Shown: positions 5,571-44,280 of the stretch, in pieces
How the letters are laid out: each line of letters begins with the position of its first letter
Position numbering within the stretch: position 1 is the stretch's first letter
Assembly: GCA_949152475.1 (NCBI GenBank)
Contig: OX424556.1
Location: 13,264,664-13,328,663, forward strand
DNA: 64,000 nt
Source: Terebella lapidaria
Taxonomy: Eukaryota > Annelida > Polychaeta > Terebellida > Terebellidae
Direction: 5' to 3'
The notes under the pieces: model-generated
Database searches by the model: none
What the model saw: the letters and a program-made list of their open reading frames with translations, nothing else
What the model was told of the DNA's origin: nothing
Position numbers and translations under genes: made by a program

Positions 5571-5984
5571 TAGGGCATTTCGGCCCGAAATGCCCTTATG
5601 GTTTTGTCTGGTTTTTTTTTTTTTTTTTTTTTTTTTTCTTCTTTTTTTTTTACTTTCCGCCGTTTTGGTTTCCGATCAATAACTCGGGAACGCCTGGACG
5701 GATCTTGTCCAATTTTACACCACTGGTCAGAAATATTACATGGAAGACCCCTATTGTTTTGGAGGCGGCTCCGGGGTCCGTGAGGTCCGTGAGGATGAAA
5801 TCAAGGTTGATTTCGAGACTTGGTTTCCGATCGATAACTCAAAAAGTATTCATGCAATGGCAAGTATTCTCTGCACGGGAGTTCATTTACCACCAAGGAA
5901 GAACCCTATTGATTTTGGGATCACTCCGTCGAACGACCTTTGACCTAGAGCTCGGAAGAATTTTTGCTGATTCATCCTTGAGGC

Positions 5985-8900
5985 TTTCATGCATATCTCG
6001 GAAACGGTGCGTCGTAGAGCGAAACGGAGCTCAATTTCGGCCTCCTGGCACTAGACAAACTAGTCTAGGGGGTATCTTGGGTCGAAACGACCCCTGGTGT
6101 CGATTTTTTTTTTCGCCGACTCGGCACTTCCTGTTTGGCCGTATCTCGGAAACGGTATGTCGTAGAGCGAAACGGAGCTCAATTTCGGCCTCCTGGCACT
6201 AGACAAACTAGTCTAGTGTGTATCTTCGGTCGAGACGTCCCCTGGTGTCGAATTTTTTTTTCGCCGACTCGGCACTTCCTGTTTGGCCGTATCTCGGAAA
6301 CGGTGCGTCGTAGAGCGAAACGGAGCTCAATTTCGGCCTCCTGGCACAAGACAAACTAGTCTAGTGTGTATCTTGGGTCGAAACGACCCCTGGTGTCGAA
6401 TTTTTTTTTCGCCGACTCGGCACTTCCTGTTTGGCCGTATCTCGGAAACGGTGCGTCGTAGAGCGAAACGGGGCTCAATTTCGGCCTCCTGGCACTAGAC
6501 AAACTAGTCTAGGGGGTATCTTAGGTCGAGACGACCCCTGGTGTCGATTTTTTCGCCGACTCGGCACTTCCTGTTTGGCCGTATCTCGGAAACGGTATGT
6601 CGTAGAGCGAAACAGAGCTCAATTTCGGCCTCCTGGCTCTAGACAAACTAGTCTAGTGTGTATCTTCGGTCGAGACGTCCCCTGGTGTCGAATTTTTTTT
6701 TCGCCGACTCGGCACTTCCTGTTTGGCAGTATCTCGGAAACGGTGCGTCGTAGAGCGAAACGGAGCTCAATTTCGGCCTCCTGGCACTAGACAAACTAGT
6801 CTAGTGTGTATCTTGGGTCGAAACGACCCCTGGTGGCGAATTTTTTTTTCGCCGACTCGGCACTTCCTATCTCGGAAACGGTGCGCCGTAGAGCGAAACG
6901 GGGCTCAATTTCGGCCTCCTGGCACTTGACAAACTAGTCTAGGGGATATCTTGGGTCGAGACGACCCCTGGTGTCGAATTTTTTTTTTCGCCGACTCGGC
7001 ACTTCCTGTTTGGCCGTATCTCGGAAACGGTGCGTCGTAGAGCGAAACGGAGCTAAATTTCGGCCTCCTGGCACTAGACAAACTAGTCTAGTGTGTATCT
7101 TCGGTCGAGATGACCCCTCGTGTCGAATTTTTTTTTCGCCGACTCGGCACTTCCTGTTTGGCCGTATCTCGGAAACGGTGCGTCGTAGAGCGAAACGGAG
7201 CTCAATTTCGGCCTCCTGGCACTAGACAAACTAGTCTAGAGGGTATCTTGGGTCGAAACGACCCCTGGTGTCAATTTTTTTTTCCGCCGACTCGGCACTT
7301 CCTGTTTGGCCGTATCTCGGAAACGGTGCGTCGTAGAGCGAAACGGAGCTCAATTTCGGCCTCCTGGCACTAGACAAACTAGTCTAGTGTGTATCTTCGG
7401 TCGAGACGACCCCTGGTGTCGAATTTTTTTTTCGCCGACTCGGCACTTCCTGTTTGGCCGTATCTCGGAAACGGTGCGTCGTAGAGCGAAACGGAGCTCA
7501 ATTTCGGCCTCCTGGCACTAGACAAACTAGTCTAGAGGGTATCTTGGGTCGAAACGACCCCTGGTGTCAATTTTTTTTTTCGCCGACTCGGCACTTCCTG
7601 TTTGGCCGTATCTCGGAAACGGTGCGTCGTAGAGCGAAACGGAGCTCAATTTCGGCCTCCTGGCACTAGACAAACTAGTCTAGAGGGTATCTTGGGTCGA
7701 AACGACCCCTGGTGTCAATTTTTTTTTCCGCCGACTCGGCACTTCCTGTTTGGCCGTATCTCGGAAACGGTGCGTCGTAGAGCGAAACGGAGCTCAATTT
7801 CGGCCTCCTGGCACTAGACAAACTAGTCTAGTGTGTATCTTCGGTCGAGACGACCCCTGGTGTCGAATTTTTTTTTCGCCGACTCGGCACTTCCTGTTTG
7901 GCCGTATCTCGGAAACGGTGCGTCGTAGAGCGAAACGGAGCTCAATTTCGGCCTTCTGGCACTAGACAAACTAGTCTAGAGGGTATCTTGGGTCGAAACG
8001 ACCCCTGGTGTCAATTTTTTTTTTCGCCGACTCGGCACTTCCTGTTTGGCCGTATCTCGGAAACGGTGCGTCGTAGAGCGAAACGGAGCTCAATTTCGGC
8101 CTTCTGGCACTAGACAAACTAGTCTAGAGGGTATCTTGGGTCGAAACGACCCCTGGTGTCAATTTTTTTTTCCGCCGACTCGGCACTTCCTGTTTGGCCG
8201 TATCTCGGAAACGGTGCGTCGTAGAGCGAAACGGAGCTCAATTTCGGCCTCTTGGCACTAGACAAACTAGTCTAGAGGGTATCTTGGGTCGAAACGACCC
8301 CTGGTGTCGATTTTATTTTTCGCCGACTCGGCACTTCCTGTTTGGCCGTATCTCGGAAACGGTATGTCGTAGAGCGAAACGGAGCTCAATTTCGGCTCAA
8401 TTTCGGCCTCCTGGCACTAGACAAACTAGTCTAGAGGGTATCTTGGGTCGAAACGACCCCTGGTGTCGATTTTTTTTTTCGCCGACTCGGCACTTCCTGT
8501 TTGGCCGTATCTCGGAAACGGTATGTCGTAGAGCGAAACAGAGCTCAATTTCGGCCTCCTGGCTCTAGACAAACTAGTCTAGTGTGTATCTTCGGTCGAG
8601 ACGTCCCCTGGTGTCGATTTTTTTTTTCGCCGACTCGGCACTTCCTGTTTGGCCGTATCTCGGAAACGGTACGTCGTAGAGCGAAACGGAGCTCAATTTC
8701 GGCCTCCTGGCACTAGACAAACTAGTCTAGGGGGTATCTTGGGTCGAAACGACCCCTGGTGTAGAATTTTTTTTTCGCCGACTCGGCACTTCCTGTTTGG
8801 CCGTATCTCGGAAACGGAGCGTCGTAGAGCGAAACGGAGCTCAATTTCGGCCTCCTGGCACTAGACAAACTAGTCTAGTGTGTATCTTCGGTCGAGACGA

Positions 8901-10600
8901 CCCCCGGTGTCGAATTTTTTTTTCGCCGACTCGGCACTTCCTGTTTGGCCGTATCTCGGAAACGGTGCGTCATAGAGCGAAACGGAGCTCAATTTCGGCT
9001 TTTGGCACTAGACAAACTAGTCTAGTGTGTATCCTGGGTCGAGACGACCCCTGGTGTCGAATTTTTTCTCGCGGACTCGGCACTTTCTGTTTGGCCGTAT
9101 CTCGGAAACGGTGCGTCGTAGAGAGAAACGGAGCTCAATTTCGGCCTCCTGGCACTAGACAAACTAGTCTAGTGTGTATCTTGGGTCGAGACGACCCTGG
9201 TGTCGATTTTTTTTTCGCCGACTCGGCACTTCCTGTTTGGCCGTATCTCGGAAACGGTGCGTCGTAGAGCGAAACAGAGCTTAATTTCGGCCTCCTGGCA
9301 CTAGACAAACTAGTCTAGAGGGTATCTTGGGTCGAAACGACCCCTGGTGTCGATTTTTTTTTTCGCCGACTCGGCACTTCCTGTTTGGCCGTATCTCGGA
9401 AACGGTACGTCGTAGAGCGAAACGGAGCTCAATTTCGGCCTCCTGGCACTAGACAAACTAGTCTAGGGGGTATCTTGGGTCGAAACGACCCCTGGTGTAG
9501 AATTTTTTTTTCGCCGACTCGGCACTTCCTGTTTGGCCGTATCTCGGAAACGGAGCGTCGTAGAGCGAAACGGAGCTCAATTTCGGCCTCCTGGCACTAG
9601 ACAAACTAGTCTAGTGTGTATCTTCGGTCGAGACGACCCCCGGTGTCGAATTTTTTTTTCGCCGACTCGGCACTTCCTGTTTGGCCGTATCTCGGAAACG
9701 GTGCGTCATAGAGCGAAACGGAGCTCAATTTCGGCTTTTGGCACTAGACAAACTAGTCTAGTGTGTATCCTGGGTCGAGACGACCCCTGGTGTCGAATTT
9801 TTTCTCGCGGACTCGGCACTTTCTGTTTGGCCGTATCTCGGAAACGGTGCGTCGTAGAGAGAAACGGAGCTCAATTTCGGCCTCCTGGCACTAGACAAAC
9901 TAGTCTAGTGTGTATCTTGGGTCGAGACGACCCTGGTGTCGATTTTTTTTTCGCCGACTCGGCACTTCCTGTTTGGCCGTATCTCGGAAACGGTGCGTCG
10001 TAGAGCGAAACAGAGCTTAATTCCGGCCTCCTGGCACTAGACAAACTAGTCTAGTGTGTATCTTCGGTCGAGACGACCCCTGGTGTCGAATTTTTTTTTC
10101 GCCGACTCGGCACTTCCTGTTTGGCCGTATCTCGGAAACGGTGCGTCGTAGAGCGAAATGGAGCTCAATTTCGGCCTCCTGGCACTAGACAAACTAGGCT
10201 TATGGGTATTTTGGGTCGAGACAACCCCTGGTGTCAATTTTTTTTTCGCTGAATCGGCACTTCCTGTTTGGCTGTATCTCGGAAACTGTGCATCATACAG
10301 GGATACGGAGCTCAATTCCGGCCTTCTGGCACTAGACAAACTAGTCTAGTGGGTATTTTGGGTCGAGACCACCCCTGGTGTCGAATTTATTTTCATCGAC
10401 TCGGCACTTCCTGTTTGGCTGTATCTCGGAAATGGTGCGTCGTAGAGCGAAACGGAGCTCAATTCCGGCCTCCTGGCACTAGAATAACTAGTCTAGAGGG
10501 TATCTTGCATCGAGACGACTTCTGGTGTCGAAATTTTTTTTGCCGACTCAGCACTTCCTGTTTGCCATATCTCAGAAACGGTCCGTGGTAGAGCGAAACG
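5985..10600 (+). repeat. 148-bp minisatellite array, about 31 copies
   Basis: Successive copies of a core that includes ATCTCGGAAACGGTGCGTCG are 148 bp apart (for example 7306, 7454, 7602, 7750, 7898, 8046, 8194). Every monomer has a T-run of 6-10, the words GCCGACTCGGCA and GAGCGAAACGGAGCTC, and a dyad CTAGACAAACTAGTCTAG. Because 148 is not a multiple of three, overlapping 71-codon open frames recur every 148 bp; they are artefacts. Outer monomers (10200-10600) are more diverged than central ones, as expected for arrays homogenised by unequal exchange. Confidence 0.95.
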
Positions 10601-10753
10601 CAAAGATGCCTAAGGACGGGGTATGTCACTTAAACTTTGACCACGGACAGATTCAGAGTCATTATGGTTCTAGACGCGGTCTCTTAGGTAAATGTTAGGT
10701 AGGAATAGAACTCACACGAAATGCCCCAAGGCATCTTCAGGCCTTGACGTCTA

Positions 10754-11268
10754 CAGTACTGATTTCGCAAAACCTCACTAGCCATGCGAATGCTACATGC
10801 TAAATGCTAGGCCATGCGATTACGTGCGACTTGATGCTAGCATCAAATCGCATGGTGCGACCAGTGGGCGCGATGCCATCGCATCAGGCGGCCGTCTTAG
10901 TTGAACAGGCGAGCATTGTCTCGCACAGATGCGCGCATCATTTATTTCGGATGCAAATACTGACTTTAATATGAACTGAAATGAAACACTGCATTTTCCC
11001 ATACGATCTACATGATACAGACTGTTTATAAACCACTCGACCATGTGTTTGCGAGCATATGCGAGCATATAATGGCCTTCACAAAAAATGCGAAATGCTT
11101 TTAGTGCACCACAGTGCCAAGAAGCAATGCTAGCATCGAGGGATGCTCGCATACACAATGCTAGCATCAAATCGCATGATGCTACGTCAGGCGAAGTTGG
11201 GCGAACACGTGCTAAATGCCAGGTGTCCCATGCTGGCATTTTGGTGAGGTTTTGCGAAATCAGTACTG
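10754..11268. mobile_element. mariner/Tc1-type MITE, 515 bp, TA target duplication
   Basis: The ends are perfect 25-bp inverted repeats starting CAGTACTGATTTCGCAAAAC and are flanked on both sides by TA (10752-10753 and 11269-11270). The interior has many ATGCTAGCATCA-like inverted words and no transposase frame, so it is a non-autonomous element. It lies in the last bases of the 148-bp HLE; joining its flanks restores ACGTCTAG. Related single ends occur at about 12905-12939 and 15471. Confidence 0.85.
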
Positions 11269-11271
11269 TAG

Positions 11272-17480: not shown

Positions 17481-18545
17481 CGAGCAACATGTATCACCAA
17501 TTTTGTGTCACTTTTTAGCTTATCGGTGCATATCAAGTCACTATTGGTTTTGAGCCATTGAAATTTTTTTAGGATAATTTTGCCCAATTTTTCCTTGATA
17601 ATGGGAGCTGTGCGGAGTAAACTCATAGAACACTTCAGGATTGAGCCTAAGTATTGGCACATTCAAAAGGGAAGTCATATATTGCGGTTTGAGTGATGAC
17701 CTTGAATTTGACCTTCAATGGCCCTGGAAAGTCAAAACGACCTTTTTTGTCGAAAAAAACGATGAATTATGTTTTTGGCGGCCATTTTCTCAAAATCCAT
17801 TCAAACAATTTTCTTCAAAATCATGTACAAGATTCGCCTTTTGTACCTTTGTGATGTGTATAAGTTTTGTTGCCTTCAAAATGACGGCTTGCGTGGGGCG
17901 GCCATTTTGATTATTTTGGACAGGTAGGCAAACAAATTTTTGTTTCTCCGAAATCAAGTCATCATTCGTTTCGAGCCATTTCCAGCAAAAAAAAAAATTT
18001 GTTTTGGCCGTTGTAAAAAAAAATTTGAAAAAAAAGTTTTCCTTCATAATGGGAGCTTTGCGGGGTAAAATCCTAGAACACTTCAAGATAGAGCCCAAGT
18101 ATTGGCACATTCAAATGTTAAAGCATATATTGCGGTTTGAATGATGATTTGAATATGACTTTGAATGACCTTGGACGGTCAAAACGACCTTTTTTGTCGA
18201 AAGAAACATTTTGATTTTTGTCTTTGGCGGCCATTTTCTCAAAATCTATTCAGACAATTTTTCTCAAAATGCATAAGATTCTCCCTATGTACCTTTGTGA
18301 TGTGTAAAAGTTTTGTTGCCTTTAAATCGACAGTCTGTCAGTATATGTCATTAACAAAAAAATATGTAACTCGATTTCGTATTATAATCCATACAGAAAA
18401 TGTGTTTCCGGCAACATTTATGAACATGTTTTGACAATAGAGTTCAAGATCAGTGTAAAAAAATATATGTTGGAAAATCAATACTCTGTGCAATTCTCAT
18501 GATTGCCGGTAAGCTACAGCACCCTTGGTGCTATGTTTAAAACAT
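17481..18545 (+). mobile_element. HLE family 2 element with two 0.45-kb internal units
   Basis: Two related units (about 17540-17990 and 17990-18370) share GAGCCATT, TAATGGGAGCT, GTATTGGCACATTCAAA, ATATTGCGGTTTGA and CTTTGGCGGCCATTTTCTC-like words. The 3' end is ATTGCCGGTAAGC followed by a hairpin AGCACC-ctt-GGTGCT (18518-18532). The same terminus closes the copy at 43640-44280. The plan is that of H1 and H3 with different sequence. The 5' boundary is not resolved. Confidence 0.5.
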
Positions 18546-19240: not shown

Positions 19241-19619
19241 CCACCATTTTTGCTTGGCAGCTTTGGATTTTGGTTCCCGGTGAATTCGTAGAATTTATTC
19301 TGCAAACTAGCTTTTTGCGATATATTCTTACGGAATTTCACCCGCCACGTTCATAGACATCGTTTTGTGTCTATTTGGATAAGTATTGGTCGATAGTTTG
19401 TTACTTGCTAGATCGTCAGCGATTTGTATAGCCAGTTCACCCTATTATCGTCCATCCGTCGTACTTGATAGTGTACTTGTTGTTTACATCATCATTAGTT
19501 CTACGTTAATTTTCTACTGTATATTTATTGTCATACTGCAGATTATATATTCATAGTCCTCTTAGGGTTCTTTTTCAGCGCAGTCTCAGGTTTGCTTATT
19601 TTGCTTATTTTTGGTATCT

Positions 19620-21196
19620 ATGGAGGATTTGAGGTGTGATCTGTGCCGTTTCTGGCGTCCCTCTTCCTTCGTGCAGGCGACTGCAAAGTATTCTGAGGCC
19701 TCCATGGCTCGTCAGGATGCTTTGAGGCTTTTGGAAGCTGCGGCGCCGCAAGTCCGCCACACGCCCATGGAGGTGGAGACTCCGCCTGTGATGGCTCAGA
19801 TTGCGTCCGGTGTTAGCCAGCCCCTGGGGCTAACACAGGACATGGTCAACACGGCTGTGCAGTCCTTTTTTGCACAGTCGCTGTCGTCCCTTCAGGGTCC
19901 CCTCCTGCCGGGTCACTCTTCCCTGCTTGGACAGGGAGTCCCGGCCGGTTCTTCGGCTGCCCCTTCGTCGCAGGGAGAGCTTGCTCCCCCTGCTGGCAAG
20001 AAGTCGAAACCTTCTAAGAAGAAGGTTTCGGTTCTTGCCAAGACGAAAGCAGTCAAGGAACCGCACTCCACCTTCGTCGTCCCTCAGTCGGGGCCGATCG
20101 AGGTGGAGGGGTCCGTTACCTCTTCCCTGGGCCTTCCAAGAAGAGGAAGCGTGGTTCCTCTAAGCGCCGTGGTGCTGAGACCACATCGATTTTCGATGTG
20201 GCTCAGGCTTCGTCCGACCTCTCGGTGGGAGACGATCAGGCCTCGGGCTTCGATCGGCGGAGCGTCTTGGATGGCTCTTTCGGGTCCTCGGTCTCGAGGT
20301 TCGAGGGGGAAGAGTTCCCTATGTTTGAGGGGGGGGGGGGGGGCTCTCGATCGTTCGTGCAATCGGGAGCCTTCACTTGACCACTCAAGTCCTGTGTACG
20401 CAGATGTAAGTCGCCGGATGGGCGCGTTCGCTGAGCAGGCATTCCCTCGCCCATCTTTTGATGTATCCTTGGGGTCATCAAGGTCTTCGATCGGACCTGT
20501 GAGGTCAACGATCGGGGGGGGGGGGGGGGGTGTCGAGTGGAAGCTGATCAGGAGTCGTCATCCTCAGAGGATGAGACTTCCGATCAGGCCGGGGGTTCTA
20601 ACTTCCGGGGCTTTGGAGTCGGTGGCAAGGCGTATGGACTTACCGATCGATACCCAGGGCCCTCGTGGGGAACCGGTAGGTTCGCGTCGGCGCCAGTTCG
20701 TCGGCCGATCCGGCTCCCTGTGGCTCCCGCATTGGTCAAGTCTTTCGACAAGATCAACAAGGGAGTTATGGCTAAGAAGGATGTGGCTCGTGCAGAGTCG
20801 ACATTCCCGACTAGCCGTGTTCGACCTGAGTCGATCGACACCTATCGGACTATAGAATCCGAGGGTGGACATCAGACTTCCATCCCGGTCGAAGACCCTA
20901 ACCTTCACCTGCTTTCCTGGAAGCAGGGTACGGTCTGGTCAGCTTATGTGAAAAAGGCTTGCCTTTCTCACTGGCAGACGCTGTCTCATCAATTGATGGG
21001 GCAGCTCTCGTTGACAGATCACCTGACCACTTTGGTTCAGGAGTTTGTGGACGAGGCGGATCTGGAGGAGTGGAGTCGCGCCAACATTCATGCGGCACTC
21101 GGCGTCTTGGCCGGAGTTGTCCATGCTGCTGAGCGTGACAGTGCGCACCTGGGCGGGAAGTCGGCGGGGTATGGGACAGGCAAGAAGACAGGTTAG
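19620..21196 (+). pseudogene. DIRS A Gag-like region, frame-broken
   Basis: The first ATG in the main frame (19620) starts MEDLRCDLCRFWRP, a CxxC motif that is shared by copies B and D. The following Ser/Pro/Gln-rich region includes Lys-rich blocks. At about 20137 a frame-shifted SKKRKRG resembles a classical nuclear localisation signal. G-runs of 15 (20329-20343) and 17 (20514-20530) interrupt the frame; the conserved C-terminal part (about 20537-21196; HQLMGQLSLTDHLTTLVQEF) is read in another frame. The DIRS Gag presumably binds RNA and enters the nucleus. The N-terminal Cys/His-rich part present in copy B at 26230-26330 is missing here. Confidence 0.8.
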
Positions 21197-21419
21197 AAGC
21201 CTGCCCAACCGCAGGCACCACATGCACCCGCTTCTGCGCAGCCGCCCTTTCGGGGGGTGCAGCCTCCCCCTCCTCAGGGGGATGGCAAGCGTGGAGGCAA
21301 AGGGGGTGGACGCTTTAAGGGCAAAGGGAAATCTTCTGCTAAGAAGTGACTCGTTGCAGGAAAGCGTAGGCTCTGTGGAAGGTTCTGTTCTTTCGGAATT
21401 CGATCTTCCACAACCTGGT

Positions 21420-22790
21420 CCAGTCGGGGGGGGGGGGGCGCCTGGCTCAGTTCGTTCAGAACTGGAGCGATGTGGCGTCGTCAGACAACTCAGTCGTGGC
21501 ATGGGTGAAGTTCGGTCTCACCTTCAGATGGGAGGCTGGAAAACCACCGATCAGGCTGGAAAAAGCCCGGCGATCGGGAAAAGTTTCAGCTTCTGCAGCA
21601 CGAGGTGCAGCAGTTGCTAGAGAAACGTGCGATCGAGGTGGTCAAGGACGAGAGGGGATTCTTCCTAGTGCCGAAAAAGACAGGCGGGTGGCGCCCGTTT
21701 TCAACCTGTCAAACCTCAACAAATTCCTGATCATACCCAGGTTCAAGATGGAGTCGGCGCTTTCCGTTCAGAAAGCTCTGTCCATGGGGAAGTGGGCAGT
21801 CAGTATCGACGTCAAGGACGCGTACTTACACGTGCCCATACACCCAGCCGATCGGCGATACCTCAAGTTCGCCTTCGAGGGCTCGGTATATCAGTTCAGG
21901 GTACTTCCTTTTGGAGTAGCCACCGCCCCTAACGTGTTCACCCGTATCGTAAGGGCGATGGCAGCCAGGTTTCGATCGGTTGGAATTCAATTCCACCATT
22001 ACATCGACGATTGGTTAATCATAGCCTACTCCCCGTCTCAGGCTATAGAGCAATCCGGGTTCGTCCTCAGGTTGGCGACCAGCCTTGGCTGGATCCCCAA
22101 TTGGGCGAAGTCTCATCTGTCCCCATCTCAGAGATTCGAGTATGTGGGGGTAGATTGCAATTTAGATCGAGGAGTAGCTCTTCCTCCGGTGAAGAGAGTT
22201 CTCAAGGCGATTGCGGCGATGGATGTCGTGCTGACGCAGTCGTCGATCAGAGCTCGACAGTTTCTGTCCATCATCTGTCTGTTGGCGTCGATGGAGAAAC
22301 AGGTGCCGTACGGCAGGTGCTTCCTCAGACCCATTCAATGGTGTCTAGCGTTGCAATGGCGGATCCTCACCAATCGACTAGACCAAGTCGTATCGGTGGA
22401 CGATCGTGCTTGGGAAGCAATGCATTGGTGGCGGGACCATCGGAATCTTTTCCGAGGGATGCCACTGGCGGAGTATCTGCCCGATCGGACCTTCTTCACC
22501 GATGCGTCAGAATTAGCTTGGGGAGCTCATATGGACGAGCACGAACTCTCGGCTGTGTGGAACACGAGCGAGAGGGTGTTGCACATCAATGTCCTAGAGC
22601 TGCGAGCGGTGAGACGTGCGTTCGAGATATGGGGGCCTTAGAGTCCCCCAGGGACGAAATGGTTGGTCTTCACGGACAACAGCACAGTAGTGGCGCACGT
22701 AAACAAACAGGGTGGAACTCGGTCGAGTCAGCTTGGTTTGGAAGCCGAGTGTCTTTGGAAGCCGAGTGACCCGTCTGTTTATTAGGGCAA
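21420..22790 (+). pseudogene. DIRS A reverse transcriptase and RNase H
   Basis: The RT domain is recognisable from about 21480, with a frame disturbed near 21540-21670, then continuous to 22641. It contains IDVKDAYLHVPIHP, FRVLPFGVATAP and the catalytic YIDDW (codons from 22000), where most RTs have YxDD. RNase H begins around 22485 with FFTDAS and continues IN-VLELRAVRRAFEIW; a TAG at 22639-22641 ends the frame, and the domain resumes in a different frame with VFTDNSTVVAHVNKQGG. A G13 run lies at 21426-21438. Together these enzymes would copy element RNA into DNA; the interruptions indicate a dead copy. Confidence 0.9.
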
Positions 22791-26540: not shown

Positions 26541-26559
26541 GTGACTTGTTGCCGGGAAG

Positions 26560-27900: not shown

Positions 27901-27959
27901 GGGGGGAACTTGTTCGAGGGAACCCTGTTTTGAGGCCGAGGCTCTGATCAGGTTTGCCT

Positions 27960-29300
27960 TTTGGCACTGTCTGTACATCAGAGCTCGCCATACTGGGGTC
28001 GCAGGAATGTCTTAGCAGACGCCTTCTTGCGACCAGACAATGTGATCGGCACGGAGTGGAGTCTAAATCCGGAGTTATTTCGGCCCATTTGTCAGGTATT
28101 CGGAACGCGGAACATAGACCTGTTTGCGACCTCTCGGAATCACAAGCTTCCGGTCTTCTCACTACTCCGAGAGAGCGAGGCACTGGCACTGGCAGTGGAT
28201 GCGATGTCCCAGTCGCGGGGTGGGATGTACGGGTATGCGAATCTGCCAACCCACTTTCTCACAGATGTGCTTCACAAAGTGGCCAGGTCTCATTGCGAGG
28301 TCCTGTCAGTGGCGCCATGCTGGCCGACGCAAGCATGGTTCCCGCTGCTGTTGACCCTGTTGATCGACGTCTGCTCAAGCAGCTGCTTCAGGACATATAT
28401 CACAATTCCGCCCACGTCCTCAAATTACATGTGTGGAGGCTATCGAGCGATCCTTTCAGGAGGCAGGTTTACCTAAACGGGTGTCTCAGCATCTCGCAAA
28501 GAAAAATCAAAGATCCTCTTCTAGAACGTACGAGGCTGAGTGGAGAGATTTCGTACGTAGGTGTAACGGAAGGAGCGTGGTTCTGCTCTCTGGTTGGATT
28601 GATTTGTCTAATAACCAAAAACAAATGGCGTAACATCCCCGGGGAGTACCATCCCTACCTGATTGGGACATGGCTTTTGTGTTATATTGTCTCACAAACG
28701 CTCCATGGGAATCGCTGCAAGATGTTTCTTTGCAGCAGTGAACCTTGAAAACCTTTTTTCTGGTCTTATTAGCCAGTGGGAGGAGACGATCGGATATTGC
28801 TGCTATCGATTTTACTAGGGTAGCATATTCGAATGATGGATCAGTTTCTCTCTATCCAGTCCGTGATTTTATGCCTAAAATACCTGCTGCAGTAGAGGGA
28901 ATAAGGCTTTCAGTCTGATTGTGCTGCCGTCTATCGTCGGTCACGTCTGTCGCAATGAGCCGGATGCTCTGTTATGTCCTGTGCTAACAGGGTTACGGAT
29001 ATTTCGCCAGTTACACTATCACGATGGGTGAAAATACTAGTGCGAGCTGTCTATACGGAATCAGGTGCTGACGATCGTTACACCTACAAAATATAGTCAC
29101 ACCATGTCCGACATACATCTCGAAGTATTTGGCATCCCGTTCGAATATTCCGTTAGAATATATCGTAAGGGCCAGATTGTGGACTAATTCCACGACATTC
29201 ATCGGGTATTACTTGTCCAATTTTACCGAGCTGCAGAACCAGTCTGCCAGATTTAGGCTGGGACCGCTGGTCGTAAATGTAGCTCAAAATGTTGTCTGAC
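27960..29300 (+). pseudogene. DIRS B connecting domain and tyrosine recombinase remnant
   Basis: The segments GTRNIDLFATSRNHKLPVF, VDAMSQSRGGMYGYANLPTH and VAPCWPTQAWFPLLL are clear, then the recombinase start SSRTYEAEWRDFVRRC and later pieces to about 29230. A deletion near 28600 removes sequence present in copy A. The equivalent HxxR region (around 29100) has a TAG stop. Confidence 0.75.
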
Positions 29301-29326
29301 CAACCGGACAGAAAAGTCAGGTTTTT

Positions 29327-30911
29327 AGGTTACCGGACCTTTGGTCCGATAACCTATTGCCGTGGCGTTGCGTCCGTCGTCCGTCCGTCCGTCCGTCCGT
29401 CCGTCCGTCCGTCCATCCGTCCGTCGTCCGTTCACATTTTTATCTTTAAAGTTTACGGTCGAATCTTTCTGAAATTTTGCACAAAAATACCTAAAAATAT
29501 TTCCAGGAAAGGTTTTTTTTAGTTTTTCGATTTTCGCATTTTTTTAAAAATGGCGGCCGTTTTCGACGAAAAATGCCTGATTTTGGTCTTTGGCGGCCAT
29601 TTTCTCAAAAACTGTTCAGTAACTTTTTTTCTTTTTGATACACAACACTCCTCATATGTACTCCTGTGATGTGTATAAGTTTCGTTGCGCTTGAATCGCT
29701 CGAAGTGGGCCATTTTGGGCCAAACTTGGCCCAAATGGGACTTTCCCATGTTAAATTCTCCTATGCTTTATAATGGGACAAATTATGCCTTATATCTCAC
29801 TTAATATTGAGATTAGAGAATAGGAATCAATTGTGGACATATAGGAAACGATATAAGCTGAATATTCTCGTGACCTTGAATTTGACCTCTGACCTCAGTT
29901 TCAAGGTCAAAGAACAAAATGGCTAATATCTCGCTTATTATCAACTTTACAGCTTAGAAATCAATTGTGAACATATAGGAAATGATATATGCCGAATATT
30001 CTGATGACCTTGAATTTGACCTTTGACCTCATTTTCAAGGTCAAAGTTAAAAATGGCTAATATCTCACTTCTTATCGACTTAATAGCTTAGGAAATAATT
30101 ATGAACATATAGGAAATGATATAAGCAGATTATTGTCATGACCTTGAATTTGACCTTTGACCTCATTTTCAAGGTCATGGGACAAAATGGCTAATTTCTC
30201 CCTTATTATCGATTTTACAGCTTAGAAATCAATTGTGGACATGTAGGAAATGATATATGCTGAATATTCACGTGACCTTAAATTTGACCTCTGACCTCAT
30301 TTTCAAGGTCAAGAGCCCGAAATGGCTAATATCTCGCTTATTATCGATTTTACAGCTTAGGAATCAATTGTGGACATATAGGGAAGGATATACGCTGAAT
30401 ATTCTGATGCTCTTAAATTTGACCTTTGACCTTATTTTCAAGGTCATAGCACAAAATGGCTAATATCTCGATTATTATCGATTTTACAGCTTAGGAATCA
30501 ATTGTGGACATATAGAAAATGATATATCCATAATATTCTTGTGACTTTGAATTTGACCTTTGGCCTCATTTTCAAGGTCAGAGTGCAAAATGGGTAATAT
30601 CTCTTTTAGTATCAACTTTACAGCTTAGGAATCAATTGTGGACATATAGAAAATGATATATGCGGAATTTTTCCGTGACATTGAATTTGGCCTTTGACCT
30701 AATTTTCAAGGTCAAAGCACATAATGGTTAATATCTCGCTCATTATCGACTTTACAGCTTTGGAATCAGTTGCGAACATATGGGAAATGATATATGGTGA
30801 ATATTCTCACGACCTTGAATTGACCATTGACCTTGTTTTAAGGTCACCAGACAAAAGGCTAAGATCTAAAATATATATTGTCCGGTAACCTCTCTTAGCC
30901 CTTGGGCTAAT
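29327..30911 (+). mobile_element. HLE family 3 (H3) with (CCGT)n and 134-bp array
   Basis: The 5' end has GGTTACCGGACC-ttt-GGTCCGATAACC (29328-29354), a palindrome with one mismatch. A (CCGT)n microsatellite follows (about 29374-29431), then a conserved block, then the 134-bp array. The 3' side has GTCCGGTAACC (30880-30890), a perfect inverted match to the first 11 bases, and a hairpin TTAGCCC-tt-GGGCTAA (30895-30910) followed by T. This is the plan of Helentron/DINE-1-type non-autonomous elements. It interrupts DIRS B just after a run of T. Confidence 0.68.
29780..30870 (+). repeat. 134-bp minisatellite, about eight copies
   Basis: The anchor GACCTTGAATTTGACCT occurs at 29872, 30006, 30140, 30274 and about 30408, a 134-bp spacing. 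Each unit ends with ATGGCTAATATCTC and has ATATAGGAAATGATAT. Units contain a short inverted pair GACCTTGA/TCAAGGTC. Confidence 0.93.
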
Positions 30912-30944
30912 TTTTATTTGTACATGTTTATAAGCACACAAGTG

Positions 30945-31910
30945 TCTTATTGTATCCCCCGAACAAAGTTCGGATCTGGCTCTAATTTCGTCATCTTGAA
31001 ATGCAGTTTTGGTCAACTTTTAGCTTGAATTTCAACCTAAAGCCAAGTTTGGCACATATTATTAGTTAAAATATACCTCATGGAAAGTTCGATCTGGCTA
31101 CAATTTCGTCATCTTGAAATGCAGTTTTGGTTAACTTTTAATTTGAATTTAACCTTGAAACCAAGTTTGGCACATATTATGAGTTAAAATATAACTAATG
31201 ACGAAACGTTCTATCTGGCTCCAATTTCGCCATCATGAAATGCAGTTTTGGTCAACTTTTAGTTTGAATTTCAACTTGGAACCAAGTTGGGCACCTATTA
31301 TGAGTTAAAATATAACTCATGGCGAAAAGTTCGATCCTGCTCCAATTTCTTCTTCTTGAAATGCAGTTTTGGTAAACTTCTAGCTTGAATTTCAACTTGA
31401 AACCAAGTTTGGCACATTTTATGAGTTAAAATATAACTTATGACGAAAAGTTCTATCTGGGTCCAATTTCGTCATCTTGAAGTGCGGTTTTGGTCAATTT
31501 TTACATTGAATTTCAACTTGATACCAAGTTTGGCACATATTATGAGTTGAAATATAACTCATGGCGAAAAGTTTGATCTGGCTCCAATTTCGTCATCTTG
31601 AAATGCAGTTTTGGTCAACTTTCAGTTTGAATTTCAACTTGAAACCAAGTTGGGCAGGTATTATGAGTTAAAATATAACTTATGACGAAAAGTTCGATCT
31701 GGCTCCAATTTTGTCATCTTTGGAACCATGTTTGGCACATACATGTAATATGAGTCGAAATATAACTTATGGTGAGAAGTTAGATCTGGCTCCAATTTCG
31801 TCATCTTGAAATGCAATTTTTGACAACTTCTACTTTGAATTTCGACTTGGAACCAAGTTTTTAAAATATTCTAAGTTAAAATATAAATAGGTGAAAAGAT
31901 TGATCTATCT
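30945..31910 (+). mobile_element. HLE-like element H4 with 121-bp array, 3' end not found
   Basis: It starts with a palindrome CCGAAC-aaa-GTTCGG (30959-30973), again with a 3-nt loop, leading directly into a 121-bp minisatellite of about eight units (anchor CTGGCTCCAATTTCGTCATC at 31215, then near 31336, 31457, 31578, 31699; the first interval is 118-121 and the last 87). A terminal hairpin for this family was not identified, so it may be truncated by the next element. Diverged single monomers lie near 34665 and 35310. Confidence 0.6.
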
Positions 31911-31995
31911 GTATTTTCATTATTTTATCAAACATGTCGAAATGGAAATTCATATAAAGAGATTTCAGTGGTGATTTTGAATTTGACCTTCAACT

Positions 31996-34070
31996 AGACG
32001 TCAAGGCCTAAAGATGCCTTGGAGGCATTTCGGTGTGATGATTAATTTATAATATATACTAGATATCGACGAAAATGAAAAATGTCGACTCCGCAAAAAA
32101 ATTTACCGTTAAAATAATACCCCTTAGACAGGTTTGTCTAGGGCGACGAGTCCGAAAAAAAAGTCTGTTTCGCTCTACGACTCAGTGTTTCCGAGATATC
32201 GACGAAAACGAAAAATGCCAACTCGGCAAAAAATTTTTTAGTCAAGGTCAAAGTTCATCCATAATACATATAAGATAAATGTTGTCTAGAGCGACAAGTC
32301 CGAAAATAACGTCCGTTTCGCTCTACGACACACCGTTCCCGAGATATCGACGAAAACGAGAAATGCCGATTCGGCAAAAAAATTTCGGGTCAAGGTCAAA
32401 GTTCATCCATAATACCCCTTAGACATGTTTGTCTAGGGCGACGAGTCCGAAAATAACGTCCGTTTCGCTCTACGACACACCGTTCCCGAGATATCGACGA
32501 AAACGAAAAATGCTGACTCGGCAAAAAAATTTCGGATCAAAGTCAAAGTTCATCCATAATACCCCTTAGACATGTTTGTCTAGGGCGACGAGTCCGAAAA
32601 TAACGTCCGTTTCGCTCTACGAAGCACCGTTTCCGAGATATCGACGAAAAACGAAAAATGCCGACTCGGCAAAAAAATTTCGGGTCAAGGTCAAAGTTCA
32701 TCCATAATACCCCTTAGACATGTTTGTCTAGGGCGACGAGTCCGAAAATAACGTCCGTTTCGCTCTATTACACACCGTTCCCGAGATATCGACGAAAACG
32801 AAAAATGCAGACTCGGCAAAAAAATTTCGGGTCAAGGTCAAAGTTCATCCATAATACCCCTTAGACATGTTTGTAGACATGTTTGTCTAGGGCGACGAGT
32901 CCGAAAATAACGTCCGTTTCGCTCTATTACACACCGTTCCCGAGATATCGACGAAAACGAAAAATGCAGACTCGGCAAAAAAATTTCGGGTCAAGGTCAA
33001 AGTTCATCCATAATACCCCTTAGACATGTTTGTCTAGGGCGACGAGTCTGAAAATAACGTCCGTTTCGCTCTACGAAGCACCGTTTCCGAGATATCGACG
33101 AAAACGAAAAATGCCGAATCGGCAAAAAAAATTCGGGTCAAGGTCAAAGTTCATCAATAATACCCCTTAGACATGTCCGAAAATAACGTCCGTTTCGCTC
33201 TACGACACACCGTTCCCGAGATATCGACGAAAACGAAAAATGCCGACTCGGCAAAAAAATTTGGGGTCAAGGTCAAAGTTCATCCATAATACCCCTTAGA
33301 CATGTTTGTCTAGGGTGACGAGTCCGAAAATAACGTCCGTTTCGCTCTACGACGCACCGTTTCCGAGATATGCAGGATGCCTCAAGGATGACTCAGCAAA
33401 AAATTATTTCGACCTCTAGGTCAAAGTTCGTTTGACGTATCGATCCCAAAATCAATAGGGTTCTTCCCTGTTGATATATAAACCTCCGTGCAAAATTCTG
33501 CAACTATTGCCTGAATATTTTTCGAGTTATCGTCCGGAAACCAAGTTTCAAGATCAGCCTCGATTTCATCCTCAAGGACCTCACGGACCTCGGAGCCGGA
33601 TCAAAAAAAATAATACACCCTAGAGATGTTTGTCTAGGGCGACGAGTCCGAAAATAACGTCCGTTTCGCTCTACGATGCACGGTTTCTGAGATATGCAGG
33701 AAGCCTCAAGGATGAATCAGCAAAAAATTATTTCGACCTCTAGGTCAAAGGTCGTTTGACGGATCGATCCCAAAATCAATAGGGTTCTTCCCTGGTGGCA
33801 TATGAACCTCCATGCAGAGTTCTGCAACTATTGCGTAAATATTTTTCCAGTTATCATCCGGAAACCAAGTCTCAAAATTAGCCTTGATTTCATCCTCACG
33901 GACCTCACGGACCTCGGATCCGGCTCAAAAAGAATAGGGTTCTTCCACATATCATTTCTGACTTGTGGTGAAAATTTGACGAGGATCCGTCAAGGCAATT
34001 TAAAGTTATCGTCCGGAAACCAAAAGTGGCGGAAGAAAAAAAAAAAAAAAAAAAAAAAAAAAAACAGGGG
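31996..34070 (-). mobile_element. second copy of the 148-bp HLE family, inverted (H5)
   Basis: On the minus strand it ends with CAAGGC-8 nt-GCCTTG (32002-32021) and ACGTCTAG followed by T, matching H1. The subterminal repeat is CGAAATGCCTCC (one mismatch). About nine 147-148-bp monomers fill 32060-33370, followed by a duplicated flanking block (about 33370-34020) similar to 5650-5990 of H1 and an A29-like homopolymer (34036-34064). The 5' palindrome of H1 is absent. Monomers share with H1 the words GCCGACTCGGCA, ATCTCGGAAACGGTG, CGTAGAGCGAAACGGA and the TAGAC...GTCTA dyad, but the rest is strongly diverged. Confidence 0.65.
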
Positions 34071-34093
34071 AAAAGAAAACAGTTGTGACTTGA

Positions 34094-34131
34094 GATTTAA
34101 CATTTCTCTGGTAATCCTTTTTAGCCCTTGC
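34094..34131 (+). repeat. H3-like 3' terminus without a matching body
   Basis: CTGGTAATCC and TTAGCCCTTGCTCTAG followed by T look like a decayed H3 3' end (CCGGTAACC, TTAGCCCTTGGGCTAA). It lies just beyond the poly-A end of H5. It may be the 3' end of an element into which H5 inserted, or a chimaeric 5' end of H5. Confidence 0.5.
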
Positions 34132-34635
34132 TCTAGTTTTTCACACTTAACAGTGATATATTTGGGGCAACAGACATGATAGGGCTACGGGGGATACACC
34201 CAAGCGGTCGTAGGCGACCGGTAGCGTCTAGTTATTTCTTTGCTTTGGGCTCAAGGAGAGCGCAAATTTCCACCGATGGGTGAAGTTAATCTCTAGCACA
34301 AAATGCTCCGCCGCGTCTCCTTCGATTCTAAGGAGCATGTAGTAGTTTATATCGGTGATGTATAGAATAAACTTTTATTGTAATTTTTCCGTTTATTGCT
34401 ATTAGTTACTCACCTCCAATCTACAGTAAAAGACCCTCCCATCCTCCCCACCTTTTGTTGTGCTAGCGGCTCTCTTTTGTGGAGACAGAAAAGTGAAGTT
34501 GCTGCGCATGCGCGCGCGCAGGTGCGCGGCGGTTTGGGTGTGAAAAGGAGCGCAGTCATGAGGCCGACGATCGTGCCTTATTTCAATCACGCGGATTTCC
34601 TATCCAGTGAGTAATATCAATAAACGGAATTTTTG

Positions 34636-40049: not shown

Positions 40050-40199
40050 TAGGCGAACCTGAACAACCGCTTCCTTCCAGACAAAAATCCGACGTTCTGG
40101 TGCCTCTTCAATTGTGCTACTTCCGTGGTGTTGTCTGACTTTGGCTGCCCCAGTGATGGAACACATGACGCACCGCCTTAAGCTCCATGACTTTTTTAT

Positions 40200-40860
40200 G
40201 TGACTCGCTGTCCTGAGTGACCCAACAAATGGATAGCTGTTCCTAATCCTTCTGAACTCCCCAAGCTACCTGTGACATGTCCACGAATAATGTCTCGTGA
40301 GGTACATAGGCCTCTAAAGGCATTCCTTGGCACAGATTGGAACGATCTGTCCACCATCAAGAGGCCTGAATGGCCATGTGATCGAGGCGGATCTGACGAT
40401 CCAGTGGGTTCACTAAGATTTCCCACCGAGTACCTAGTAACAACTGAATCGGCTGCATGAAACATCTGCCAGGAGGAAACTGCTCCACCATCGACACTAG
40501 CAGTCGGATTACTGACACTGTCCTTGCTGTCACCTCCAGCAAAGCAAACCTCCAGCAAAGTCTTTTCGATGCAGTATCCAGATACATTCTGGAATGGGGA
40601 TGAATAGGGATACCATCCCATTTCAGATACCTACTGAAATGGGGATGGATAGGGACATGGATATAGGCGTATTTTATGTCTACATATACACTGACGACAT
40701 AAAATAACCCCGGTTTATTGCACGTTCCACTGATAGTGGGGTCTCCATTATTGTTGAACCTGGGAATGATCAGGAACTTGATTATCTGCGACCGGTTGAA
40801 TACTGGGCTCCATCTGCCTGTTTTCTTCAAAACAAGAAAATATGAGTGCGTCTGAAACCT
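40200..40860 (-). pseudogene. DIRS D reverse transcriptase remnant
   Basis: The minus strand reads KKTGRWSPVFN, IKFLIIPRF and VDIKYAYIHVPIHPHF, which align with copy A's RVAPVFNLSNLNKFLIIPRF and DVKDAYLHVPIHP, then a thumb-like region (PPGRCFMQPIQLLL). The catalytic YIDD segment is deleted. Confidence 0.75.
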
Positions 40861-41344
40861 TCTTCAAGAGATGATCATACTTGTTTTGATAGCTCAGAGT
40901 GGGAAAGAACTATGGTGTTTGACGTACTAGTGGCTTTTGGTTCTCTCCCCAGCCAATCTAGGACTTGAGTGTCAGAGGTAGACGTGCTGCACAGGGCTGC
41001 ATTCAACATGCCCAGATGCGCTCCGACGGGAACTGGCGAAGGTATTTGAGTTCTGGTCAGAACTCTGCCACCCTCGTCTAGTCGATTGGACAGAGAGTCA
41101 CTTATATGCTGACTTTCCACCCCGTAATTGACCTCCTTTCCCTTCACACTTTCACACATCCTGGAGTAGGGGAGGCTGGCAGGACGAAGAGAGAGTGGTC
41201 TGAGGAGGCTGCGGCAGACCTGCTGTGGAAGCATTGTGCTTCTCAGCAGCCTTCCACACACCACTGCCCCTAGCAGTCACCTGCATGAGTACCTAATTGC
41301 GAAGGGTTTGCCCAAAGGCCAAACCATCTTCACATGAGACATCA

Positions 41345-42890
41345 TCAGAGGAGTAGCAAGTGAACCTTGGCCAAGGCAGCAACGTCTACAGAAATCAGCC
41401 CCAGAGTGGGAAGCTCTTCCTTTTGGTCCGTCAAGTCCAAGCGGAAGTCTAGATAGGTCGAGTTATGCTCAGCCTCCCCCCCCCCCACCTCTTGAGCACC
41501 CAAGGCACTCTCGTTCGCGAATTCCTGAACCAATGTAGTCAGGTGATCCACGAGCAAAAGCTGACCCATCAACTGATGAGCAATAGTCTGCCCTGTTTGA
41601 AGGCGACCAGTCCTAACATAGACAGACCACCATGCCTGGCTCGTGAGAAAGCAAGTGCAGATGGGGGTTTTCGACCAGTGACTTGACTCCACTACTGCCA
41701 GACGATCGATAGGTGTCCAATGCAGCAGATGAGCTTTACAGCTTACCAAGCAGGAAAGGAAGCCTCGATCTGGAGACATCCTGCTTGGAGGTGACCTGAT
41801 TGTTTATGCACTGCACTGCAGTCAACAACGGCGAGATTACACATAAACAGATGTGCTGTTGCTGATCATCAGCAATTAACCTCCCTTTACCCTTATAGTT
41901 CTTTGGAACCTCGATCAGTAGACACATGCGGGTAGCAATTGACAGCACCCTCGGCCTGCCTATCGATCCTAGGGATTTGAGAGGTGCCAGTTGACCGCCA
42001 GTCTCATGATCATGACCAGCATAATTGGTAGACCACTTATCCAACTCGAGCAGGGCTATCAAGGACCCATCGACCTATCGACTCAGGCTATCAACTCAGA
42101 CCAGCTAGCCTGAGGGTCCTGCCACAAACCAGAACTCTCCTAAGCTTTGGAAGAAACCTACCATAAAAAGCGACCACCAAGGGGGTCACAGACAGTCTGA
42201 GACGTAGGACACTTCGAAGCCAGGAGAAGAAACCCCAGAAGAGGGAGAGAGGACTGCTCCTGTGAAGCTTTGATTGAAGCCACAGAAATAGGAAGATCTG
42301 TCCCGAATTCTTCTTGCAAGAAGCCTTTTTAGCCTTCTTAGATCTCGTAGTCTTCTCCAAGGGAGGAGCAGAAGATCTCACGGGGAAATCTACACCCAGG
42401 AGTCCAGAAGGGCCTGGAATCATGGGACCCTGAGTAGGGAGAGGGACCAAACCCAGGCCTTTTAAAACTGACAGGATGGAGAAGGTTAGGAATTCTGCAA
42501 CAACCCTGGGGATGAGTTGCCTCGCTGTATCTCTGCCGATCCGGAGCTGGCCACTTTAGGGCAGTCACCACCTGATGTCTTGCTTGTGGCCTCGACCAAA
42601 ATGAGAGCATCACATGCCTAGCTGCGGACGAATCCACTACTTGTCAGTTACAGCCCTCAAAATGGGCGGGTCTCCAGGATCTGCAAAGATCACAACGAAG
42701 ATCCTCAAAATCGTTGGCTCCGTACCCCCAAACAGTTGAAATACAGCTCATGTTTCTCCCGTCTATGGAGGGTGTTGAGGTTACCATGGGAGACCCTTTC
42801 AGGGCAAAGACCCGTGGAAAATGACTGATCCAAGACACTAGGCAAAACTTCGCTAAGAACTGAATCAAGGCTACTTGGAAGAATGCCAAG
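41345..42890 (-). pseudogene. DIRS D Gag-like remnant
   Basis: Near 42660-42710 the minus strand reads EDLRCDLCRSWRP, the shared N-terminal CxxC motif. Near 41500-41620 it reads IAHQLMGQLLLVDHLTTLVQEF, the conserved C-terminal Gag segment. A C11 run (41476-41486 on the plus strand) lies in the latter region. Several frameshifts separate the pieces. Confidence 0.75.
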
Positions 42891-43099
42891 CTCTACAGGT
42901 CCACGCTCACCAAGATGGCCCCAGAGAAGAAAGATGGTCTAGCATTCTGTAGTATTTCAGATTGGTACATGTAATACTTAAAATAAACGTCAGCTCTTCA
43001 TGGCGTTTGAAAACTTTAGGGTCTAGTACGATTTGATGTGCACGAAATGATGTAGATCTTACTCCTCTGAAGATCGAGAAGCATTAGAGACACTCGGCC

Positions 43100-43640
43100 A
43101 TAGCACGTCAATGTCTCTTGATCATAGGCCTGCTGGTGTCAATGGAGAACCAAGGTCGGTTCGGCAGATGCTTTGAACGACCCATACAGATGCGGCAGAT
43201 GCTTTGAAGACCCATACAGTGGTGTCTGGCCTTTGCGTGGGAGATCGTCGGCGATCGGTTGGACAAGACCTTAGTGTTGAAGAACCGCTCAAGGAGAGCT
43301 TTGATGGGATGGCTGGAACCTACTAATTTGTGATCGGAGTATACTCAAACAACAGCGTGGTCTTAGCAGACCTACAGATGTGAACGAACAGAGAGGGTTG
43401 CGGTGGAGGTGGTGTTAGTCGATCGAGTGAACTCTCTCTAGACGCTGAGAGTCTGCACTGCCTGTTCTGCAGGGTACGCCGTCCACCAAGTCAGAGTAAT
43501 GTCCTGGTGGACACCCTCGCATGGACGGACCAGAAAATTGACTTAGAGTAGTCTCAGTTGGGTGGTGTTCATCGCATTTGTTAGGGGAATGTCGTACATA
43601 GCCCATTCGTGACCTACCAGAAATCTCCCAGTCTTCTCGT
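43100..43640 (+). pseudogene. DIRS RT/RNase H fragment E, plus strand
   Basis: GGCCTGCTGGTGTCAATGGA and the following CGGTTCGGCAGATGCTT correspond to LLASMEKQ..(Y/F)GRCF of the RT thumb in copy A; later pieces resemble the connection segment and the CGGAATCACAAG region. A 32-bp local duplication (CCCATACAGATGCGGCAGATGCTTTGAA) is inside. It lies head-to-head with copy D. Confidence 0.6.
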
Positions 43641-44280
43641 TACTGTTTGATCAGTTTTGAGATTTTTGTTTCAAAACATTCCTCTCATGTACCTTTATGA
43701 CGTTTATAAGTTTCGTTGCTCTTGAATCGCTGGTCTGCGTGTGGCGGTCATTTAGATTTTTTGACGGGTCGGCGAAAAAAGTTTTTTGGGTCCCAAATTA
43801 AGTCATTATTCGTTTTGAGCCATTTCCAGCTAAAAAAAAAAAATTGCCATTTGAAAATTGGACTTTTCTGGAATTTTCACCCAATTTTTCCTTCATAATG
43901 GGAGCTGTACGGAGTAAACTCATAGAAGACTTCAAAATAGAGCCTAAGTATTGGCACATTCAAATGGGAAAGCATATATTGCGGTTTGGGTGATGACTTT
44001 GAATTTGACCTTCAATGACCTTGGAAGGTCAAAAACGATTATTTTTGTCTTTGGTGGCCATTTTCTCTAAATGTATTTAGACAGTTTTTTCTCAAAATCA
44101 AGTATAAGATTATCCTTATGTACCTTTGTGATATGTAATTTGATTTCGTATTATAGTCCATACAGAAAATGTGTTTCCAGCAACAATTACGATCAGTTTA
44201 ACAATTTATATGTTGGAAAATCAATACTCTGCATTTCTCATGATTGCCGGTAAGCTACAGCACCCTTGGTGCTGATGTTT
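43640..44280 (+). mobile_element. HLE family 2, second copy (H7)
   Basis: It repeats the family-2 block (GAGCCATTTCCAGC, TTCATAATGGGAGCTGTACG, GTATTGGCACATTCAAATGG) and has the same 3' end, GATTGCCGGTAAGC plus hairpin AGCACC-ctt-GGTGCT (44259-44273). It has one unit rather than two. Its 3' end lies 239 bp before the start codon of the second ankyrin gene. Confidence 0.6.

Follow-up and report, generated by a model that had tools for sequence, protein, structure and literature searches.

Minisatellite-bearing elements with hairpin ends in Terebella lapidaria are very probably non-autonomous Helentrons

Introduction

A 64,000-nucleotide (nt) stretch of the genome of the polychaete Terebella lapidaria (C2:13264664-13328663, in an assembly of 761.6 Mb and 438 contigs), hereafter the window, contains three minisatellites, with monomers of 148 base pairs (bp) at 5994-10600 (H1), 134 bp at 29785-30867 (H3) and 121 bp at 30965-31720 (H4). 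The locus raises the question of whether these arrays expanded in place or are carried by mobile elements and, if so, of which class. An original prediction, made from the sequence alone, had placed the arrays at these positions, where we found them, and had described their monomers as unrelated, in agreement with a self-comparison of the window that returned no match among the H1, H3 and H4 arrays at an E-value of 1e-4. It had also proposed that the three arrays share a layout of palindromes and hairpins, and assigned them, with a further family (family 2), to Helentron/DINE-1-type Helitrons.

The analysis reported here shows H1, H3 and H4 to be mobile elements bounded at their hairpins. Together with family 2, they are very probably non-autonomous Helitron2/Helentron elements (HINEs), copied by a Helentron Rep-helicase-endonuclease encoded elsewhere in the genome. 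The ends, boundaries, insertion sites and copy numbers of the elements were directly observed, as were a Helentron gene and Rep-encoding elements with the 3' end of H3.

Results

Terminal structure of the elements

The elements of the window are listed below, with a slash marking the boundary between element and host.

5570..11271, plus strand: H1 element, with 5' TT and palindrome (5572-5596), T-tract, array (5994-10600), arm (10717-10726), hairpin (10727-10746) and CTAG/TT, interrupted by a small nested element
10754..11270: small nested element with inverted ends CAGTACTG and TA flanks, in the CTAG end of H1
29327..30910, plus strand: H3 element, with palindrome (29327-29355), GTCC microsatellite (29371-29431), array (29785-30867), arm (30880-30891), hairpin (30895-30910) and CTAA/TTTTT; placed by its ends in the window, an empty site and genome counts
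30950..34231, plus strand: H4 element, with TT, arm (30951-30961), hairpin (30959-30973), array from 30965, arm (34188-34198), hairpin (34205-34220) and GCGTCTAG/TT; placed by its arms in the window, 20 fetched 3' ends and genome counts
31994..34070 (upper limit approximate), minus strand: H1r, a second-subfamily H1 copy inside H4, with 147-bp monomers and its 5' palindrome lost
34104..34136, plus strand: H3-like 3' terminus within H4, with arm TCTGGTAATCC, a weak hairpin and CTAG/TTTTT
61640..61989 (start approximate), plus strand: third H1-family copy, decayed, with the same 3' end
17517..18541, plus strand: family-2 copy, with 5' arm AGCTTATCGG after T5, 3' arm (18505-18515) and hairpin (18518-18532)
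43640..44280 (start approximate), plus strand: family-2 copy of the original prediction, with 3' arm (44246-44256) and hairpin (to 44275)

The palindrome of H1 reads AGGGCATTTCGG C CCGAAATGCCCT, with 12-bp arms strictly around a single central base, which implies a hairpin loop of 3 nt, whereas that of H3 reads AGGTTACCGGACC TTT GGTCCGATAACCT, with 13-base arms, one C-A mismatch and a TTT loop. Folded as single strands, the two reach -11.9 kcal/mol (z -6.1) and -10.6 kcal/mol (z -5.4) respectively, with 0 of 200 shuffles as good in either case. In both H1 (10 of 11 bases) and H3 (12 of 12), a single arm matching the 5' arm lies near the 3' end and is followed by a hairpin, which bears out the 11-base inverted repeat and hairpin predicted for both. 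A scan of both strands of the window for a 3-nt-loop palindrome, a single arm and a hairpin returned exactly H1 and H3, and the same scan yielded one match in 20 Markov control sequences (one strand each). Arm pairs without a palindrome were too noisy to be used alone, with 146 matches in the window versus 9 to 25 per strand in Markov sequences.

The palindrome of H4 (6-bp arms, AAA loop) is weak evidence by itself, since the window contains 52 perfect palindromes of this 6+3+6 form and 20 Markov sequences contain 18.9 on average; its 5' hairpin is also weaker than those of H1 and H3 (z -2.7, 3 of 200 shuffles as good). As a whole, the observed architecture is confirmed. The original prediction had listed no 3' arm or hairpin for H4, and here it needs correction. 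The 11-base arm TGTATCCCCCG at 30951 has its complement at 34188, followed by a hairpin (z -2.6) and GCGTCTAG/TT, and an arm pair as good was obtained in 5 of 11,580 Markov 30-nt segments. This end (34188-34231) had been overlooked because H1r, on the opposite strand, is nested in H4.

The H3-like terminus upstream of this end probably belongs to the body of H4. Its interpretation as a separate nested element was dropped, since it recurs together with the H4 tail at loci L013 and L020; at L020 (position 215), an H1 copy has inserted precisely at the CTAG/TT of an H3-like terminus within the body of H4. A tandem segmental duplication of about 3.28 kb and 99.5% identity (33478-36770 and 36756-40049) doubles the 3' end of H4 and part of the H1-family copy.

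For family 2, the predicted 3' hairpin was recovered with its arm at 44246-44275, and a second copy was identified at 17517-18541; the 3' hairpins have z-scores of -2.8 and -1.1, respectively. No 5' end was found in the window for the former copy, and the window arm scan detected no 5' palindrome or partner for the latter. Family 2 and H3 have the arm core CCGGTAA and stretches of the body in common, but not the array.

The three H1-family 3' ends in the window agree through GACGTCTAG/TT and diverge beyond, once the nested TA-flanked element is read across. That nested element, which we take to resemble a Tc1/mariner-type miniature inverted-repeat transposable element (MITE), has a 98% copy at locus L062 and weaker partial copies at 12.8 and 15.5 kb. 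The consensus monomers of H1 (built from 27 monomers) and H1r (from 8) are identical at 102 of 145 positions and have the block TATCTCGGNAACGGTGNGTCGTAGAGCGAAACGGA in common; diverged overall, the monomers of the two arrays (5994-10600 and 32114-33371) retain a 35-base block and a GCCGA-TCGGC palindrome, and also contain a TAGACA/TGTCTA-type hairpin.

Recurrence of the ends across the genome

The first kilobase of H1 returned at least 40 full-length genome matches with 96-100% identity, the window copy included, among the 40 scored of 3,035 first-look candidates. Both ends were recognized by exact pattern in 18 of the 20 other copies fetched, the remaining two presenting only the 3' end. These 18 copies read A (17) or G (1)/TT-AGGGC...CTAG/TT, with both the initial TT and CTAG/TT present in 18/18, while their arrays vary from 10 to 29 counted monomer motifs. 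Likewise, the 20 fetched H4 3' ends all read CTAG/T, followed by a second T in 19. Exact 3' ends number 3,943 for the H1 family, 4,861 for H3 and 2,128 for H4, for which 2,271 exact 5' ends were also found; the reversed control gave 0 in every case. Matches to the 5' palindrome amount to 11,830 for H3, allowing its usual single mismatch, and to 4,041 for the H1 family, in which perfect palindromes are counted on both strands.

The two ends are paired on one strand. In counts based on contig C1, an upstream 5' end lies on the same strand within 8 kb of 40 of the 52 listed H3 3' ends and 70 of the 91 listed H4 3' ends, compared to 2 and 0 with a 5' end on the opposite strand; same-strand 5' ends on the wrong side (17 and 9, respectively) reflect clustering. 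These counts leave out the 48 of 100 H3 and 9 of 100 H4 3' ends beyond the reach of the partner list and, for H3, the two entries of one perfect palindrome. In the same contig, each of the two H1 subfamilies keeps to its own variant of the 3' hairpin, with pairing at 62 of 78 and 14 of 22 listed sites compared to 1 and 1 crosswise, leaving out two entries with other palindrome forms.

The original prediction had further posited a fixed 3-nt loop. This holds for H3, with a 3-nt loop in 98 of the 100 entries listed (9 and 12 nt in the others), and fails for the H1 family, where 64 of the 83 sites listed have a 4-nt loop (GGCATTTC GGCA GAAATGCC and variants); the perfect H1 palindrome accounts for 17 and different forms for 2. 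A loop of 3 nt is therefore characteristic of particular families and not a general rule, and in H1, whose palindrome is nearly gapless, it is no more than the tightest fold available. Among 26 H3 sites with perfect 12-base arms, 24 have a 3-nt loop reading TTT, TAT, TAA, TCT or their complements, and loop length is thus held while its letters change. The stem mismatch is likewise present in 98 of the 100 H3 entries listed, the other two being both strands of one perfect site.

Insertion sites and an empty paralogue

The window includes three diverged copies of a retroelement encoding a reverse transcriptase, and both H3 and H4 are inserted in the second.

19376..24889, plus strand: retroelement copy A, with reverse transcriptase at 21370-22641; uninterrupted paralogue of the H3/H4 site
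25901..34607: second retroelement copy, interrupted
40148..43317, minus strand: third retroelement copy

Matching blocks of the second copy span 25901-29325 and resume at 34290-34607, so that copy A constitutes a single empty site lacking both elements. With H3 and H4 taken out, the host sequence from anchor GACAGAAAAGTC to anchor CACCGATGGGTGAAG amounts to 86 bases (8 + 39 + 39), versus 82 in the empty paralogue, which indicates that any target duplication is limited to a few T. The paralogue has diverged, to 67-77% over the matching blocks, and has about 130 extra bases from the right anchor to the next matching block, and parts of the right-hand stretch are also found inverted near 25.6 kb. 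The right flank of H3 was unconvincing on its own, with 68 of 2,978 random placements as good, and it was the tests with joined flanks that settled the site. The 5' flank of H4, read in the window copy, presents an A before TT.

Three H1 insertions also sit in repeats with an uninterrupted counterpart, providing paralogous empty sites in which a host A or G/TT is split by TT...CTAG or, equally, by AGGG...CTAG with TT duplicated. Insertion into T-rich or TT sites without target duplication was hence observed at the H3/H4 empty site and at three H1 empty sites.

These sites bear on two other explanations. Plain satellite DNA, with arrays expanding in place and hairpins arising by chance or as local foldbacks, would fit the length of the arrays (18 H1 copies have 10 to 29 counted motifs), but the same ends enclose arrays of differing length at unrelated sites, for some of which an empty counterpart exists; the empty sites refute this explanation, and its likelihood is negligible. 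Cut-and-paste MITEs or foldback elements, for which the arms would be terminal inverted repeats and TT or TTTTT a target duplication, would accommodate the TT on both sides of 18 H1 copies and the T runs flanking H3. The 3' arm, however, is subterminal, with the hairpin outside it, and the elements are asymmetric, one end palindromic and the other a single arm. Any duplication at the H3/H4 site (86 versus 82 host bases) amounts to a few T at most, and Rep-encoding elements have the 3' end of H3 in common, making a MITE origin highly improbable.

Rep-helicase genes in the genome

No Rep or helicase was detected in any of the 34 window frames of at least 150 amino acids, all scanned with Pfam, as expected for non-coding elements. 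In the genome, 150 matches to PF14214 were scored out of 234 candidates, many of them in open frames of 2,200-2,800 amino acids, compared to 0 in 14 control genomes. The protein at locus L057 (2,266 amino acids read) comprises DUF6570, OTU, Helitron_like_N, PIF1 and Exo_endo_phos domains.

Another Rep family, with copies on contigs C9, C14 and C2, links such genes to H3. The match among the three copies runs to CTCCGGTAACCTTTCTAGCCCTTGGGCTAATTTT and breaks off at one common base, exactly past CCGGTAACCTTTCTAGCCCTTGGGCTAA/TTTT, a terminus that differs from the H3 3' end by one missing and one altered base. From the end of the open frame to this shared terminus, C14 and C9 are collinear in several blocks; for C2, 2 kb were fetched about 6 kb downstream of the Rep match, of which 468 bases match. 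The original prediction had called for a full-length Rep-helicase relative with the same ends; what these copies have in common with H3 is the 3' end. At locus L074 (~437-500), an H3 element begins 11 nt past the CTAA end of a copy of this Rep-encoding family, in a tail-to-head neighbour insertion.

Among eight Rep loci sampled downstream, only L062 and L066 show any of the arm motifs sought. The H3-type copy beside the L066 Rep gene was considered as the terminus of that gene and dropped, since it is a complete independent element. For the first Rep family (C130, C199), no 3' end was reached, as the copies are still alike 1.7 kb into the stretch that follows, where the comparison covered 2 kb of a single copy. 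Matches of viral contigs to the H1 3' end (8 loci) were also discarded, as none has the H1 arm before the motif and 7 of the 8 represent one other context. The listed literature matches to the terminal letters of the elements appear, by title, to be unrelated and of primer type.

Discussion

Probable assignment to the Helitron2/Helentron class

In the definition of Helitron2, the 5' arm folds into a hairpin with downstream bases and the 3' arm lies just before the 3' hairpin (Bao & Jurka 2013, PMC3627910). In our elements, the 5' arm pairs with nearby downstream bases in H1, H3 and H4; a complementary 3' arm lies just 5' of the terminal hairpin in these three and in the family-2 copy at 17517; and the 3' terminus of H1, H3 and H4 reads CTRR/T. 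With Helitron2 they also share the potential for the two arms to mark the end by pairing; they differ in species and in their central minisatellites, which go unmentioned in the available part of that paper. The Helentron/DINE-1 class originally proposed is thus upheld by the ends, the empty sites without long duplication, the thousands of copies, the Helentron protein and the Rep elements with an H3-type end.

Under this assignment, Rep would nick at the 5' end and the displaced strand would be peeled off as far as the 3' hairpin. In the model of Bao and Jurka (PMC3627910), pairing of the 5' and 3' arms would compete with the 5' hairpin and dissolve it, thereby setting the end point. The peeled strand would then insert in T-rich DNA, for H1 at A/TT. 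The cargo between the ends, here a minisatellite, is not needed for transposition and can differ between elements with similar ends.

The main competing assignment is to canonical Helitrons (Helitron1) with short inverted repeats arising by chance. H1 and H4 do have, like such Helitrons, a hairpin followed by CTRR at an A/T target: both end in a hairpin, 8 to 11 nt and CTAG before T, and an A precedes TT in 17 of 18 H1 copies and in the H4 copy of the window. H3 presents CTAA/T in a T run. Nonetheless, the elements have no 5' TC (H1 reads TTAGGG in 18/18 copies, H4 TTGTATCC), and a 5' TT with a palindromic arm and a 3' arm just 5' of the hairpin are Helitron2 features. The one Rep protein tested, at most a candidate for moving H1 or H4, has Helentron OTU and endonuclease domains. 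A Helitron1 origin is consequently considered quite unlikely.

Several observations weigh against the Helitron2/Helentron assignment. The 3' hairpins of H1 (z -1.4, 20 of 200 shuffles as good) and H3 (z -1.7, 15 of 200) are modestly stable. Owing to the T runs at the termini, the assignment of 2 to 5 bases is ambiguous, and a 2-bp TT duplication is indistinguishable from a 5' TT. DINE-1 elements are said to lack CTAG (PMC2374699), yet H1 and H4 end in it. The 5' end of the Rep family with the H3-type terminus was not found, pieces of the H4 and H1 families being nested in its upstream stretches, and for neither H1 nor H4 was a Rep-encoding partner identified. Lastly, the L057 Helentron protein, the one full protein tested, and the copies with the H3-type terminus represent different Rep families, and partner and endonuclease were not seen together.

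Comparison with known systems

The closest descriptions come from the oyster Crassostrea gigas, where the 11-12-bp 5' arm of Cg_HINE elements has a complementary repeat at a distance of 1-12 bp, and the elements further possess a GTCC-type microsatellite, central repeats of 140-180 bp on average, a 3' arm and a 3' palindrome. They insert in T-rich targets without duplication, and in one of their groups unrelated repeats lie between related flanks (Vojvoda Zeljko et al. 2020, PMC7492417). The H elements resemble them by description in arms, microsatellite, central repeats, 3' palindrome, T-rich target and swapped repeats, and depart from them in the CTAG ends of H1 and H4, the A/TT target of H1 and the restriction of the GTCC microsatellite, among the three, to H3. 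A repeat swap of this kind was identified at locus L071 (~525-2675), where an apparent pair of H4-like ends, both of which we infer to belong to one element, surrounds a 132-bp array that is unrelated and does not match that of H4. This is the modular exchange suspected in the original prediction, and it corresponds to the 'group 2' of PMC7492417. The proposal that this modular design deserves a name of its own is not supported, because the layout (PMC3627910) and the interchangeable repeats (PMC7492417) have already been described; the set adds new families to an established type.

Palindromic subterminal repeats and TT targets have also been reported for elements of a mite, Culex and Drosophila (Thomas et al. 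2014, PMC4067079), and Helentrons encode Rep, helicase, endonuclease and OTU (PMC4067079). Helentrons and DINE-1/HINE elements resemble those described here in these repeats, the 3' hairpin, the TT preference, tandem repeats in some copies and the Rep-helicase-endonuclease and OTU genes. The ends of H1 and H4 nevertheless fit the proto-Helentron of Phytophthora infestans, with 5' TT, 3' CTAG and an A/T target, rather than typical HINEs (PMC4067079). In C. gigas Helitrons, subterminal repeats occur in 257 of 751 CTAG-ended elements, termed possible intermediates (PMC7992393); these combine a CTAG end, an A/T target and subterminal inverted repeats, as here, with a 5' TC instead of TT. Loops of 3 nt have been described in FoHeli1 and FoHeli2 of Fusarium oxysporum (PMC5148889). 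FoHeli elements of two subgroups have 5' hairpins with 3-nt GAA loops and a 12-bp inverted repeat, but they are fungal, include Rep-encoding copies and insert after TNAT (PMC5148889).

The less usual features of the set are the hybrid TT...CTAG ends at A/TT with hairpin-forming arms (H1, H4) and the conserved mismatch and loop length of H3. A joint reading of both, in which the ends would be a tuned DNA switch and those of H1 and H4 a surviving, still abundant intermediate between Helitrons and Helentrons, appears doubtful. The 5' arm of H3 fits its 3' arm perfectly (12/12 in the window copy), and its own hairpin partner with one conserved mismatch. As this is C-A on the top strand and a G-T wobble on the bottom strand, the hairpin would be weakened on one strand only, which could give direction to the order of opening and termination. 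Conversely, the constancy of mismatch and loop could be explained by shared descent, because all copies stem from few ancestors.

Other features of the window

The genes of the window include ankyrin-SOCS, sulfotransferase and retroelement genes. Two ankyrin-repeat genes, alike in appearance, lie at 13633-15372 (with a SOCS box) and 45136-46731. Additional tandem arrays are located at 47922-48858 (78 bp), 49756-50468 (31 bp) and 2723-3086 (89 bp), and an inverted unit follows the array at 49.7-50.5 kb. The motifs TTGACCTT / AAGGTCAA are common to differing central repeats and bodies (29785-30867, 43985-44035 and 32230-33280), and presumably resemble paired AGGTCA half-sites.

Implications

The families described here illustrate that one set of transposon ends can carry unrelated minisatellites across a genome. 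With thousands of Helitron2-type ends, long open Rep frames and clean empty sites, the T. lapidaria genome offers a test of the published arm-pairing model of termination, in which end variants would be set against copy success.

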